A stretch of 64,000 bases of DNA from Ruaniaceae bacterium KH17. Lineage in GTDB: Bacteria > Actinomycetota > Actinomycetes > Actinomycetales > Actinomycetaceae. This document shows, in pieces, positions 9,286-29,305 of this stretch. The notes under the pieces are model-generated. The model was not told the DNA's origin. It did not search any database and saw only the letters and a program-made list of their open reading frames with translations. The stretch covers positions 124,001 to 188,000 of the forward strand of contig FZQV01000002.1 of the NCBI GenBank assembly GCA_900199505.1, written 5' to 3'. Both the position numbers and the translations under genes were made by a program. The stretch's first letter is position 1; every line of letters begins with the position of its first letter.

Positions 9286-9359
9286 CACGGCAATAATCCC
9301 ACGGTCTCGATGCGGTTTCGCGAGCGGCACGCACACCGCGCGTCCATTATGTGGACTTG

Positions 9360-9376
9360 GTTATGATATCCATAAC
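9360..9376 (+). promoter_or_regulatory. Inverted repeat upstream of the sulfur operon
   Basis: GTTATG-atatc-CATAAC, six-base perfect arms around a five-base centre, in an AT-rich patch. It lies directly upstream of the -10 box at 9384 and covers the -35 region, so it could bind a regulator of the sulfur operon. No regulator gene was identified. Confidence 0.5.
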
Positions 9377-9383
9377 GAGTGGT

Positions 9384-9389
9384 TATTGT
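9384..9389 (+). promoter_or_regulatory. -10 box for the leader peptide and sulfur operon
   Basis: TATTGT, seven bases before the ATG at 9397. This is the same geometry as the leaderless promoters elsewhere in the window, so the transcript may begin on the leader peptide's first codon. Confidence 0.5.
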
Positions 9390-9396
9390 TTCGGTC

Positions 9397-9468
9397 ATGA
9401 GCAGGAGGACGGATCTGATGAGCCGCATGCAGCAGCGAATGTGTGGCTGCATGTGCGCCGAGGCCTGA
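9397..9468 (+). CDS. Cys/Met-rich leader peptide (attenuator uORF)
   Basis: A small ORF of 23 codons from ATG 9397, or 16 codons from the in-frame ATG 9418, which has its own AGGAGG at 9403-9408 spaced by nine bases. The 16-residue form reads MSRMQQRMCGCMCAEA: four Met and three Cys, with C-G-C-M-C near the end. Short Cys-rich leader ORFs, often leaderless, precede sulfur operons in mycobacteria and act by cysteine-responsive attenuation. The downstream genes here are sulfur genes, so the same role is inferred. Ribosome stalling at scarce Cys-tRNA would change folding of the 125-base region before the rhodanese gene. Confidence 0.7.
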   Translation: MSRRTDLMSRMQQRMCGCMCAEA

Positions 9469-9507
9469 ATCACTCCCTCATCGCGTGGATCATTCACGTG
9501 CTCAGCG

Positions 9508-9536
9508 GCGCCACGTACCTCCCGAGCGTGTGGCGC
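9508..9536 (+). promoter_or_regulatory. Hairpin in the sulfur-operon leader, CCTCC in its loop
   Basis: GCGCCAC (9508-9514) pairs with GTGGCGC (9530-9536), seven perfect base pairs. The 15-base loop contains CCTCCC (9518-9523), which is complementary to the leader's own AGGAGG. It is a plausible alternative structure in an attenuation switch. Confidence 0.45.
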
Positions 9537-9555
9537 GCGCCCGCTTGAGAGGACT

Positions 9556-9589
9556 GGTTCCGCAGTCGACGTATCAATCGAAAGGAACC
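9556..9589 (+). promoter_or_regulatory. Shine-Dalgarno-masking stem before the rhodanese gene
   Basis: GGTTCC (9556-9561) is exactly complementary to GGAACC (9584-9589), which overlaps the Shine-Dalgarno AAAGGAA of the gene starting at 9593. When paired, it would block initiation. This is the expected output element of a leader-peptide switch. Confidence 0.5.
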
Positions 9590-9592
9590 CCC

Positions 9593-10780
9593 ATGTCAAC
9601 GAACGACACTCCACCCGAGCAGCTCGCGCAGGAGAACGCGGCGCCAGCGAAACGGAGCCCACTTGCCACCGCAGTCGCATTCGTCGCGGTGGCGGCCCTC
9701 GCCGGAACCGGCGGCTGGGTGATCGCCAAGTCCGGCGATACTGATCCCCAGGCACAGCCGACTGCGACCCAAGCGGACACCGAGTCTGCCGAGATCGTTG
9801 AGGTCGCGAGTCTCCGCGCCACTAGCTTCGCTGTGGGTGAGAACCGCGGATTCGAGACCGTTCATCAGGACGCCGCGGCGGATCGTGAGAACGTGCTTGT
9901 CAGTACGGACTGGCTCGCCGAGAGGATCTCAGCGGGCCTGGAAGAGAACAACATCGTCCTCGTTGATGTGAGTGAGGAGCTCGCGGCTTCCGAACTCACT
10001 CGCTACGTGGATGGTCACATTCCCGGTGCGCAGTTCCTCGACTGGGCCAGCGAGTTTACGGTGGCTAACACGCGCGAGTTCATCACTGCGGAGGAGTTCA
10101 CCGCCCTCGCGCAAGGAATTGGCCTCAACGACGATTCGACCCTCATCCTCTATGGCGACAACAACAACTGGTTTGCCGCGTACGCCGCGTGGGTCTTCAA
10201 GCTGTACGGCTTCGAGGATGTGCGCCTGCTCGATGGCGGGCTGAAGAAGTGGGAGCAGGTGGATGGCCGCGAGCTGGTGCAGGAGACCATCCAGCCGGCC
10301 GCAGGAAACTGGACCGCATCCGCGCAGAACTTCGACATCCGGGCGTTCCAGGTCGAAGCCGTTGCCGCGGCCACCGGCGAGCTCGATGTGAACCTCCTCG
10401 ATATTCGTTCGCCGGACGAGTACAACGGCATCGTGGGTGTGAGCCCCGAGATTTTCGGCGGCGAGCAGACCTCGATCTGGGGTCACATCCCCGGCGCCGT
10501 CAATGTGCCGTGGGGCACCATCGTGAACGAGGACGGGACGTACAAGTCGAATGAGGAGATCCAGGCCATCTACGAAGAGGCCGGATTGGACCTCAGTAAG
10601 CCGGTGATCGCATACTGCCGCATTGGCGAGCGGGCCAGCCACTCCTGGTACGCGCTCAGCCAGATTCTCGGCCACGAGGTGAAGGTCTATGACGGCTCGT
10701 GGACCGAGTACGGCAACTCGGTGGGCGTGCCCGTTGAGAACAACTCGGGCGAGCGTAACGGCGTGTGGGGCAAGTCGTGA
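9593..10780 (+). CDS. Membrane-anchored two-domain rhodanese (thiosulfate sulfurtransferase)
   Basis: A 395-residue sulfurtransferase. After a polar N terminus, residues about 23-45 form one hydrophobic anchor (S-P-L-A-T-A-V-A-F-V-A-V-A-A-L-A-G-T-G-G), so the catalytic part is probably outside the membrane. Two rhodanese domains follow. The second carries the active-site loop Y-C-R-I-G-E-R-A-S-H-S, catalytic C342; this loop is typical of SseA-type thiosulfate sulfurtransferases. The first has no cysteine at the matching place. AAAGGAA precedes the ATG. First full-length gene of the sulfur operon, followed 34 bases later by the YeeE/YedE permease. Confidence 0.9.
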   Translation: MSTNDTPPEQLAQENAAPAKRSPLATAVAFVAVAALAGTGGWVIAKSGDTDPQAQPTATQADTESAEIVEVASLRATSFAVGENRGFETVHQDAAADRENVLVSTDWLAERISAGLEENNIVLVDVSEELAASELTRYVDGHIPGAQFLDWASEFTVANTREFITAEEFTALAQGIGLNDDSTLILYGDNNNWFAAYAAWVFKLYGFEDVRLLDGGLKKWEQVDGRELVQETIQPAAGNWTASAQNFDIRAFQVEAVAAATGELDVNLLDIRSPDEYNGIVGVSPEIFGGEQTSIWGHIPGAVNVPWGTIVNEDGTYKSNEEIQAIYEEAGLDLSKPVIAYCRIGERASHSWYALSQILGHEVKVYDGSWTEYGNSVGVPVENNSGERNGVWGKS

Positions 10781-10814
10781 TCCACACTATTCGTGAGCTT
10801 CACCAGGGGCGTCG

Positions 10815-12077
10815 ATGACGGCGCCTGTGCGTGCAACCGGAGGCCCCCGCCCTGAGGCGGGGGTCGCCGGTGCGTCACGCACGCTCAACTGGACTCCGGC
10901 CGATACCGTGCGCACCACCATCGCCGTCGGAATCGCGATCGTGCTGCTCTCGCTCGCCTGGTGGCTCTCGGCCACGGGTGGCGAAGGCGTTGGTGGGCGT
11001 GGGGCGTCGTTTGCCCTCCTCGCAGGTACCGGCCTGGGAATCCTGTTCGAACGCGGCAGATTCTGCTTCTACTGCATCTTCCGCGATCTCTTCGAAGAGA
11101 AGAACAGCCGTGGCGTCTACAGCATTCTCGCCGCGATCGCCGTCGGGACGGTGGGATATGTGATCGTCTTCGCGATGCGGCTTGCGGACCCGACCTCCGG
11201 AACCTTGCCGAGTGATGCGCACATCGGCCCGGTGAGCATCGCGCTCGTTGCGGCCGGAGTTGCCTTCGGATTCGGAGTGGTGCTGTCCGGTGGTTGCATC
11301 GCCGGGCACATCTACCGGCTGGGCGAGGGTAATCTCCGCGCGATCCCGGGCTTGATCGGGGCGCTCATCGGGTTCGGGATCGGCTTCCTCACGTGGAACC
11401 CGATCTTCCTGAGCGTCCTCGGCAGTGCGCCGGCGCCATGGCTGCCGGCGGGAGCTGGCTATGGCGTCGCGCTGCTCCTGCAACTGGGTATCCTCGCCGC
11501 GATCGGGGTGTACCTGCTGCGGTGGAATCCGCCCGTTGCACCGCAGCCGGCCCGCATGATCGACGCCACCGAGATTCGCCGCAGGCTCTTCTTCACTCGC
11601 TGGCCGGCGCTGCTCACCGGCGGACTTGTTGGCCTGATCGGCTTCGTGGCATTCCTGCGCGGCCAGCCGCTCGGGGTCACCTCGCAACTGAGCGGTGCGA
11701 CCCGCACCGCGATGGACAACTTCGACCTCCTGCCGAGCACCCTGCTGGGCCTCGACTCGACGCTGCGGGGCTGCGTGGCTCTCGTGGTCGAGTCCATCAC
11801 GTCGAACGGGTGGCTGATCATCGGGGTATTCCTGGGATCGCTCGCGGCGGCATTGCCGGGCCGCCGGTTCCGAATCGAGAAGGTCACCCTGCGCAACGGC
11901 AGCACGGCTCTCCTCGGAGGCGTCCTGATCGGCTGGGGTTCGATCATCGGCCTCGGCTGCACGATCGGCGTCTTCCTCTCCGGCACCCAAGCGCTCGCAC
12001 TGTCCGGCTGGGTCTTCGCCGTCTCAGTGGTGGCCGCGCTCGGCGTGGGCTTCCACCTCCGACTACACCGCCTGTAG
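10815..12077 (+). CDS. YeeE/YedE family permease (thiosulfate/sulfur-compound uptake)
   Basis: A 420-residue membrane protein with about nine or more hydrophobic segments. The conserved cysteines of the YeeE/YedE (TsuA) family are visible: C84 and C87 in G-R-F-C-F-Y-C, C161 in S-G-G-C-I-A-G-H, and C382 in G-L-G-C-T-I-G. In the studied bacterial TsuA such cysteines line the thiosulfate path. The gene sits between a rhodanese gene and a cysteine synthase-rhodanese fusion, which fits import of thiosulfate for cysteine synthesis. The substrate is inferred from family and context. Confidence 0.88.
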   Translation: MTAPVRATGGPRPEAGVAGASRTLNWTPADTVRTTIAVGIAIVLLSLAWWLSATGGEGVGGRGASFALLAGTGLGILFERGRFCFYCIFRDLFEEKNSRGVYSILAAIAVGTVGYVIVFAMRLADPTSGTLPSDAHIGPVSIALVAAGVAFGFGVVLSGGCIAGHIYRLGEGNLRAIPGLIGALIGFGIGFLTWNPIFLSVLGSAPAPWLPAGAGYGVALLLQLGILAAIGVYLLRWNPPVAPQPARMIDATEIRRRLFFTRWPALLTGGLVGLIGFVAFLRGQPLGVTSQLSGATRTAMDNFDLLPSTLLGLDSTLRGCVALVVESITSNGWLIIGVFLGSLAAALPGRRFRIEKVTLRNGSTALLGGVLIGWGSIIGLGCTIGVFLSGTQALALSGWVFAVSVVAALGVGFHLRLHRL

Positions 12078-12106
12078 ACCACACCACCATCCAGAAAGGA
12101 CTCGCC

Positions 12107-13444
12107 ATGTCGAATCACTCTCTCCGCACGTACGAATCGATCCTCGAGCTACTGCCCGATGCGGACAACCCCACTCCGATTGTCCGGCTCCAGCGCGTCA
12201 CGGGATTTCAGCACGCGAAGGTCTACGCCAAGCTCGAGTGGTACAACCCCTTCGGCGCCGTGAAGGACCGCGTTGCCGCAAACCTGATCCGCGACGCCGA
12301 GGAACGCGGTGAGGAGTTGCGGAATCTCGTAGAGCCCACCTCGGGTAACACAGGGATCGGCCTCGCCATGGTCGCCAATGCTAAGAACTACGGATTCTCG
12401 GCGACACTCTCGAAAGCGGTTCCCTTCGAGAAACGCGCCGCGTTGCGGATCTTCGGCACGGATCTCGTGGAGTTGGACGACGATCTGTGCCCCATGCCCG
12501 GCCAGCCGGAAGGCGCAATGAACAAGGCGGCGGAGCTCGGGGAGCGCCCCGGGTGGAAGCAGCTCAATCAGTACGCCAATCCCGCCAACCCCGATGCGCA
12601 CTACCGCACCACCGGCCCAGAGATCTGGCGCCAGACAGGGGGAGAGGTGACCCACTTCGTGGCCGCACTCGGCACCTGCGGAACGATCACGGGCACCGGC
12701 CGCTTCCTCAAGGAGCAGAACCCGGACGTCCAGGTGATCGGTGTGCATCCCACACAAGGACATGACATCCCAGGCGTGCGCAGCCGTCGCGCCTTGGTGG
12801 TGACCGATTTCTTTCGGCCCGAGGAGTACGACGCGGTGGTCGAGATCGATGATGACACGGCGTATGCGCTCTGCCGCCGGCTCCACCTCGAAGAGAGCAT
12901 CATCGCCGGTCCGAGTGGGGCGCTCGCGCTTGCCGGTGCACTCCAGACCGTCCCGGATGAGCCCGGTGTCATCGCCGTCGTCACCTTCCCTGACAACGCC
13001 TACAAGTACATCTCGTCCTTCCAGCGACACCTGCCCGATCTCTTCCCGCCGGAGCCTGCGGCCGCTTCGCAGCCACCCGCGAACCCATTCGGGATCCACC
13101 TGGAGAACGCCTTCGCATTGGCAAAGAAGGGGCCCGACGTCGTCGGCCCGGCCGAGGCCGCACGTCGCCAGGCGGAGGGCTCGCTACTCGTCGATGTGCG
13201 GAACCCGGACGAAGTTGCCAGGGTACAGGCGATCGGCAGCCTTACGCTCCCGCTGCCGGAGATCTCCGAGGGCAGCCTCGCCGGACTCCCAGAGGATCGC
13301 GATGCGCCCATCCTCACCATTTGCGCGGCGGGCACGCGTTCGCTGTACGCGCTCTTGCTACTGAAGGCGCAGGGCTACAGGAACGTGACCAGCGTGGACG
13401 GCGGAATGGGGGCTTGGGTCGAGGCCGGCCTGCCAACCGGATAG
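12107..13444 (+). CDS. Cysteine synthase-like PLP enzyme fused to a C-terminal rhodanese domain
   Basis: A 445-residue fusion. Residues 1-310 are a fold-type II PLP enzyme: N-P-F-G-A-V-K-D-R with Schiff-base K53, T-S-G-N-T-G for phosphate and substrate binding, G-T-C-G-T-I-T-G-T-G, and A-G-P-S-G-A. A linker of about 30 residues leads to a rhodanese domain with L-T-I-C-A-A-G-T-R-S (C406). A sulfurtransferase tethered to a cysteine synthase suggests direct use of persulfide or thiosulfate sulfur; that is inference. AGAAAGGA precedes the ATG. The stop TAG forms the first bases of the -10 box before rimP. Confidence 0.88.
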   Translation: MSNHSLRTYESILELLPDADNPTPIVRLQRVTGFQHAKVYAKLEWYNPFGAVKDRVAANLIRDAEERGEELRNLVEPTSGNTGIGLAMVANAKNYGFSATLSKAVPFEKRAALRIFGTDLVELDDDLCPMPGQPEGAMNKAAELGERPGWKQLNQYANPANPDAHYRTTGPEIWRQTGGEVTHFVAALGTCGTITGTGRFLKEQNPDVQVIGVHPTQGHDIPGVRSRRALVVTDFFRPEEYDAVVEIDDDTAYALCRRLHLEESIIAGPSGALALAGALQTVPDEPGVIAVVTFPDNAYKYISSFQRHLPDLFPPEPAAASQPPANPFGIHLENAFALAKKGPDVVGPAEAARRQAEGSLLVDVRNPDEVARVQAIGSLTLPLPEISEGSLAGLPEDRDAPILTICAAGTRSLYALLLLKAQGYRNVTSVDGGMGAWVEAGLPTG

Positions 13445-29172: not shown

Positions 29173-29305
29173 TTCGCACCAACTGAATACACCACTCACC
29201 ACCGCGCCGATTGGTTCGGTCTTCGGTAGTGGCTTCCGGAAATCTTCCGTGGGCTTCGATCGATGGCCGCCCGGCCGGCACGGTCGAACAGATATGGAGG
29301 AACCC

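Follow-up and report, generated by a model that had tools for sequence, protein, structure and literature searches.

A short open reading frame (ORF) with a cluster of cysteine codons probably acts as a ribosome-read cysteine sensor for the sulfur operon that it precedes, a reading to which we assign a probability of about 0.6. The ORF lies in the window, by which we mean the whole stretch of 64,000 nucleotides that was analyzed. The region around it (9337-9592) has a divergent gene on one side, lipoprotein-like by eye, and three co-oriented genes on the other: a rhodanese, a YeeE/TsuA-like transporter, and a CysM-rhodanese protein. The leader ORF shares the + strand orientation of these cysteine-metabolism genes and lies 5' of them. 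Judging by the gene families, the operon (9593-13444) likely takes up thiosulfate and turns it into cysteine. This type of control is probably one already known, found here on another operon and in a lineage that often has similar leaders before its main cysteine synthase gene. Feature coordinates are collected in Table 1.

Table 1. Features of the leader region and of the operon, with positions in the window and the basis of each assignment.
Feature	Position	Strand	Basis
Leader ORF, 23 codons, MSRRTDLMSRMQQRMCGCMCAEA, stop TGA 9466-9468	9397..9468	+	sequence; shuffle test; G+C by codon position
16-codon in-frame version of the leader, Shine-Dalgarno (SD)-led as in family cysK leaders	9418..9468	+	sequence
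TATTGT, -10-like box, 7 bases 5' of ATG 9397 (leaderless configuration)	9384..9389	+	sequence
AGGAGG, SD-like, 9 bases 5' of in-frame ATG 9418	9403..9408	+	sequence
Cys codons TGT 9442, TGC 9448, TGC 9454 (MCGCMC)	9442..9456	+	sequence
Perfect 8-bp stem inside leader ORF, CATGCAGC 9426-9433 / GCTGCATG 9446-9453	9426..9453	+	sequence
Perfect 6-bp inverted repeat GTTATGATATCCATAAC (GTTATG-N5-CATAAC) over -35 region; candidate operator	9360..9376	.	sequence
Segment with the stop codon, rich in C and poor in G (7 C, 1 G); candidate site of Rho entry	9466..9482	+	base counts; Rho entry inferred
Dominant predicted spacer stem, 9505-9512 with 9556-9563	9505..9563	+	72-92% of ensemble, thermodynamic model only
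Inverted repeat GCGCCAC/GTGGCGC, CCTCC in loop, 39 nt 3' of leader stop	9508..9536	+	sequence; 4-10% of predicted ensemble
GGTTCC 9556-9561, complementary to GGAACC 9584-9589 over rhodanese SD	9556..9589	+	pairing probability 0.08-0.27
Membrane-anchored tandem rhodanese (sulfurtransferase)	9593..10780	+	domain searches; anchor by eye
YeeE/TsuA-like sulfur (thiosulfate) transporter	10815..12077	+	Pfam Sulf_transp
CysM-like cysteine synthase with C-terminal rhodanese domain	12107..13444	+	domain searches

An earlier note on this DNA had described an ORF of 16 or 23 codons with four Met and three Cys in its last 16 codons, a TATTGT box seven bases before its first ATG, and a GTTATG-N5-CATAAC inverted repeat at the -35 region. 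All three are present at the positions it gave, the last 16 codons reading MSRMQQRMCGCMCAEA. The spacing TATTGT-N7-ATG fits an mRNA beginning at 9397, with the SD-led in-frame start at 9418 as the alternative. The Cys codons are codons 16, 18, and 20 of 23, near the stop and non-contiguous. Two elements had been overlooked, namely the AGGAGG at 9403-9408 and the stem inside the ORF, which contains the second Cys codon and two overlapping Met codons.

We asked how readily such an ORF arises by chance. In dinucleotide-preserving shuffles of 9337-9592, a leaderless-type promoter (a short ORF preceded at 5-9 bases by a promoter-like box) coincided with three or more Cys within eight residues in 10 of 5000 cases. 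Among the 12 leaderless-configured short ORFs of the window, the leader ORF alone has three Cys. A further 185.8 kb of this genome, beyond the window, holds 29 such ORFs, and none of them reaches three Cys in eight residues. Its G+C content at codon positions 1, 2, and 3 is 10, 13, and 20 of 23 (one-sided Fisher p = 0.0024), which is coding-like. Taken alone, the Cys cluster was borderline (p = 0.05, 100 shuffles), as would suit the alternative that the ORF is a chance frame and that a transcription factor bound to the 9360-9376 palindrome controls the operon alone, as other operator-like repeats may in Nesterenkonia. The palindrome does cover the -35 region, and it is single-copy, with no second instance in the genome at up to one mismatch. 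However, a comparable promoter palindrome arose in 334 of 5000 shuffles, making it only mildly unusual, and the joint promoter and Cys test, the coding-like composition, and the Cys leaders that precede cysK both in this genome and elsewhere in the family all speak against a chance frame. We therefore consider sole control by the palindrome unlikely. A protein regulator on it may act besides the leader.

Putative Cys leaders of this kind are a common device of the window's family. In the same genome, cysK is preceded by a Cys leader ORF, MTTVAAARRCMCLMC, with the SD-like sequence GGAAAGGA (L145 / L151). We compared 70 cysK regions, namely this one and 69 others of the family (L152-L220), made up of the 30 best-scoring and 40 hand-picked for genus spread from 204 genomes with cysK. 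In 53 of the 70, an SD-led ORF before cysK had two or more Cys within a stretch of eight residues; the reverse strand yielded 2 of 70 and shuffles 2.3. Requiring three or more Cys left 35 of 70, compared with none on the reverse strand and 0.3 in shuffles. The 17 regions that fell short comprised six having a Cys ORF without an SD and eleven in which this criterion revealed none. Among the eleven was G058, a family member that carries the rhodanese operon and has no Cys ORF before that rhodanese either. The MCGCMC of the window is similar to MCCCMC, found in the cysK leaders of G193 and G194, both of the family. Because Cys leaders are common in the family, the window leader is probably one more, placed on another operon. 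The proposal that a Cys leader with a leaderless-type promoter controls a sulfur operon is thus supported in its sensor half, both by these cysK leaders and by distant orthologous leaders described below; its other half, translational masking, fared worse.

In most family cysK leaders, a covarying hairpin, modeled here as R1, directly follows the leader stop. Its alignment (A2) holds 36 sequences and 15 pairs, 12 of them with changes on both sides, and 92.6% of its cells are paired, versus 79.2% in shuffles and at most 57.1% when slid. These 36 were what remained of the 53 passing leaders after leaving out seven doubtful picks, six that by eye fitted the alignment poorly (G210, G211, G082, G125, G085, and G086), and four near-duplicates; the covariation count is favored because poorly aligning leaders were left out. 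Two of the doubtful picks, G022 and G198, carry the hairpin. Searching the order with R1 gave one match in each of 19 out of 248 genomes, 18 in the family and one (G320) outside, under strict filters by which weak copies may be lost. The sole match outside the family (L241, in another family of the order) has a Cys-rich frame (CACCPCCR) just before it. R1 scored 56.3 bits on the cysK copy of the same genome, itself one of the 36 model-building sequences. The hairpin is absent from the window leader, where the best score in 9300-9700 was 3.2 bits. The 15 regions submitted to Rfam gave no match at E up to 1, and no description of R1 was found in the literature searched, which mostly excluded subscription journals. 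The family cysK leader would offer a well-supported structured RNA for work on mechanism.

We also examined operons orthologous to that of the window. A scan of named genomes yielded 62 transporter loci, with a rhodanese upstream of the transporter in 58 and the remaining four starting at a contig end. Of 59 regions, 8 had an ORF with three or more Cys per eight residues before the rhodanese, and 2 of 59 had one on the reverse strand. The 13 orthologous regions with rhodanese identity above 50% came from G058 of the window's family, six Nesterenkonia, and six genomes of Microbacteriaceae or similar, and not one of them had an ORF reaching three Cys per eight residues. The earlier note had proposed to test whether relatives keep the Cys codons; on orthologues this test failed, and the lack of the ORF from the closest operons is a point in favor of a chance frame. 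By eye, the Nesterenkonia operons (L047-L050, L055, and L099) apparently have ATGTGAAC-type operator-like repeats in common instead of a Cys leader. A CATAGT box was likewise seen upstream of the rhodanese in some of them.

More distant operons carry leaders of another sequence. A KRRxID(Y/F)(C/A)R leader precedes the rhodanese in 29 of 64 loci (of which L046 and L054 are one record), in freshwater actinobacteria of the acI type (L058-L107). Five KRRxID peptides were scanned against the NCBIfam Ms5788A model, and all five matched it with scores under the cut-off. Third-position divergence of the KRRxID leaders was 0.43 versus 0.08 and 0.10, an excess that is partly built in because the search pattern selects for the peptide. 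Most of these leaders, with one or two Cys, did not rise above shuffles by Cys count. The putative freshwater actinobacterial leaders are therefore supported by conservation, not Cys richness. By eye, some are leaderless-configured and others SD-led. Cys-rich short ORFs encoding unrelated peptides were also seen before the operon at L072, L082, L065, and L108 (Chloroflexota), L075 (Pleurocapsa), and L057 (Cellulomonas bogoriensis). Those of L072 and L082, two Anaerolineae, are homologous to each other; the ORFs in single Chloroflexota, cyanobacterial, and Cellulomonas loci are single occurrences, counted without regard to conservation.

The window peptide itself matched nothing in NCBIfam or Pfam, and nothing was returned against NCBIfam NF042933 (Ms5788A) at E up to 10. 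A likeness to SRRxDL had suggested an Ms5788A homologue and fell away in shuffle tests: on a home-made Ms5788A-like profile, the peptide scored -4.1 bits, equaled by 2727 of 4509 scored shuffles. Searching family genomes with the window peptide gave matches at E 0.03-0.7 in 26 of 213 genomes, its own included. The five of these matches that were inspected (L119-L123) were each taken, by eye, for chance frames. Ms5788A-like peptides below the family cut-off, such as MYELHLTSRRHIDLLRVRSMSCRP, were seen at L110, L111, L112, and L113, in four genomes, three of the family and one from elsewhere in the order; weaker matches in that search are noise, since 8 of 14 controls also match.

How might the leader act? 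We infer its translation, stalling, and direction of response from these features. Transcription would probably start at or near 9397, and a ribosome would translate 16 to 23 codons, meeting Cys-Gly-Cys-Met-Cys close to the end. When Cys-tRNA is ample, the ribosome would run on to the stop, leaving the 124 nt between the TGA and the rhodanese ATG at 9593 as untranslated, GC-rich RNA. Scarce cysteine would make it stall on 9442-9456, raising expression of the genes for sulfur uptake and cysteine synthesis. For the output, we weakly favor premature Rho-type transcription termination in the spacer over SD masking, because neither an intrinsic terminator nor stall-dependent opening of the ribosome binding site (RBS) was found in the leader. 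The one terminator-like site lies upstream, at 9342-9356. Rho termination has been suggested for mycobacterial cys leaders, a prediction its own authors term weak in the portion of their paper used here (PMC1262725), and this suggestion together with the C-rich stretch at 9466-9482 accounts for our weak lean to Rho.

The earlier note had instead proposed translational masking, in which a Cys-stalled ribosome would free the rhodanese SD from the GGTTCC/GGAACC stem, as in mycobacterial polycysteine ORFs. RBS unmasking was reportedly advanced by Canestrari et al. in 2020 as the mechanism of the mycobacterial polycysteine leaderless short ORFs. It is also described for translation attenuation in the consulted part of PMC13236596. 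The exact 6-mer complement over the SD is indeed present, but it is ordinary, an equally good one occurring in 122 of 2000 shuffled leaders (~6%). Its predicted pairing probability is 0.27 with a ribosome on Cys codons 1 or 2 and 0.08 with one at the stop, the direction opposite to a release of masking. The RBS (9583-9595) keeps an unpaired probability of 0.53-0.56 across all six modeled ribosome states, and of 0.553 with or without a ribosome on the third Cys codon, near that of shuffled spacers. Bases 9556-9563 are predicted to pair with 9505-9512 instead, in a stem that competes in the model with both the SD-masking pairing and the 9508-9536 hairpin. These values come from thermodynamic stall modeling, which ignores co-transcriptional folding. 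On this evidence, we set masking aside as the leading output and judge it improbable.

The 9508-9536 hairpin with its CCTCC loop, another element of the earlier note, exists as a repeat, but its share of the predicted ensemble led us to reject it as the dominant fold. Overall RNA folding of the leader was within chance (z = -0.86). Rfam 15 gave nothing at gathering score in the leader, and two chance-level matches lay far below (E up to 5).

Sensing of cysteine would be joined by sensing of methionine if a stall at either Cys or Met codons set expression. Internal Met makes up 4 of 22 residues of the window peptide, against 2% (nominal p = 0.0009, post hoc), in keeping with the four Met in its last 16 codons, and Met and Cys also occur together in several cysK leaders of the family, for example MNMMTAMMCCCMCL. 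Read from their longest SD-led starts, 46 family cysK leaders have 38 Met in 779 residues (nominal p = 8e-7), a figure that counts related sequences as independent; the Met p-values are too small because the sequences are related. In contrast, read from the starts nearest the Cys tract, the same 46 leaders have 21 internal Met in 750 residues (p = 0.08), and 34 of the 46 have none. The extra Met of the longer versions lies mostly at the start and may represent alternative start codons. Within the window leader, two of the Met codons face each other across the 9426-9453 stem. For the family leaders, the answer turns on which start codon is taken; we hold dual sensing to be very unlikely, and keep to a cysteine sensor as the preferred reading.

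A broader reading for this lineage is that Cys leaders, partly Cys/Met and unrelated to each other, would form a ribosome-read sulfur regulon, acting on cysK with a covarying hairpin and on rhodanese-YeeE-CysM without an RNA switch, the window copy having an output that needs no RNA structure, for example exposure of the RNA to Rho past the stop. We offer this regulon tentatively and think it rather unlikely to hold as a whole.

The window leader shares several traits with known systems. Like the polycysteine leaderless ORFs of mycobacteria, as presented in the parts of PMC9031893, PMC9094748, and PMC13236596 consulted, it is short, would lie at the mRNA 5' end if transcription starts at 9397, and has a Cys tract, a leaderless-type promoter, and a position 5' of cysteine-metabolism genes. 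Unlike them, its peptide is unrelated to the Ms5788A type, its target is a rhodanese-YeeE-CysM operon, it has an internal SD-led start, and it lacks stall-dependent RBS unmasking in the thermodynamic model. Candidate leader peptides with Cys runs before cysteine genes of Mycobacterium, P. acnes, and B. longum (cbs) were described by Seliverstov et al. 2005 (PMC1262725); in the portion of that paper used here, these too have Cys codons near the stop and no terminator hairpin, and their authors suggested Rho. They lie on other operons, and rhodanese and thiosulfate go unmentioned in that portion. With the NCBIfam families NF042933 (Ms5788A) and NF042934, the window leader shares being a Cys leader ORF, and in freshwater actinobacteria the orthologous rhodanese-YeeE operon has sub-cut-off matches of the Ms5788A type upstream; the window peptide, unlike those leaders, has no profile match.

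Closer to home, the family cysK leader is likewise Cys-rich, in the same genome, and 5' of a cysteine synthase gene, with an MCxCMC-like end in two members, whereas it is SD-led and then directly followed by R1. Cys codons in a leader ORF also occur in uORFC-8-2, upstream of cysS in Rhodobacterales, where they are in tandem and ribosome-mediated attenuation was proposed, according to the consulted part of PMC8632094. That system differs from the window in having an intrinsic terminator with a U-run, a cysS target, and another phylum as host (PMC8632094, same part).

If the cysteine-sensor reading is true, cysteine-responsive leader ORFs would govern the uptake and use of reduced sulfur, beyond the classical cys genes, and unrelated leader peptides would do so in several lineages, including the window's family, freshwater actinobacteria, and possibly Chloroflexota. 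The window leader would then be a compact test of a Cys-stalled ribosome acting without an obvious RNA switch. Elsewhere in the window, the sole match at Rfam gathering score was an Actino-pnp RNA at 29215-29271 on the + strand.
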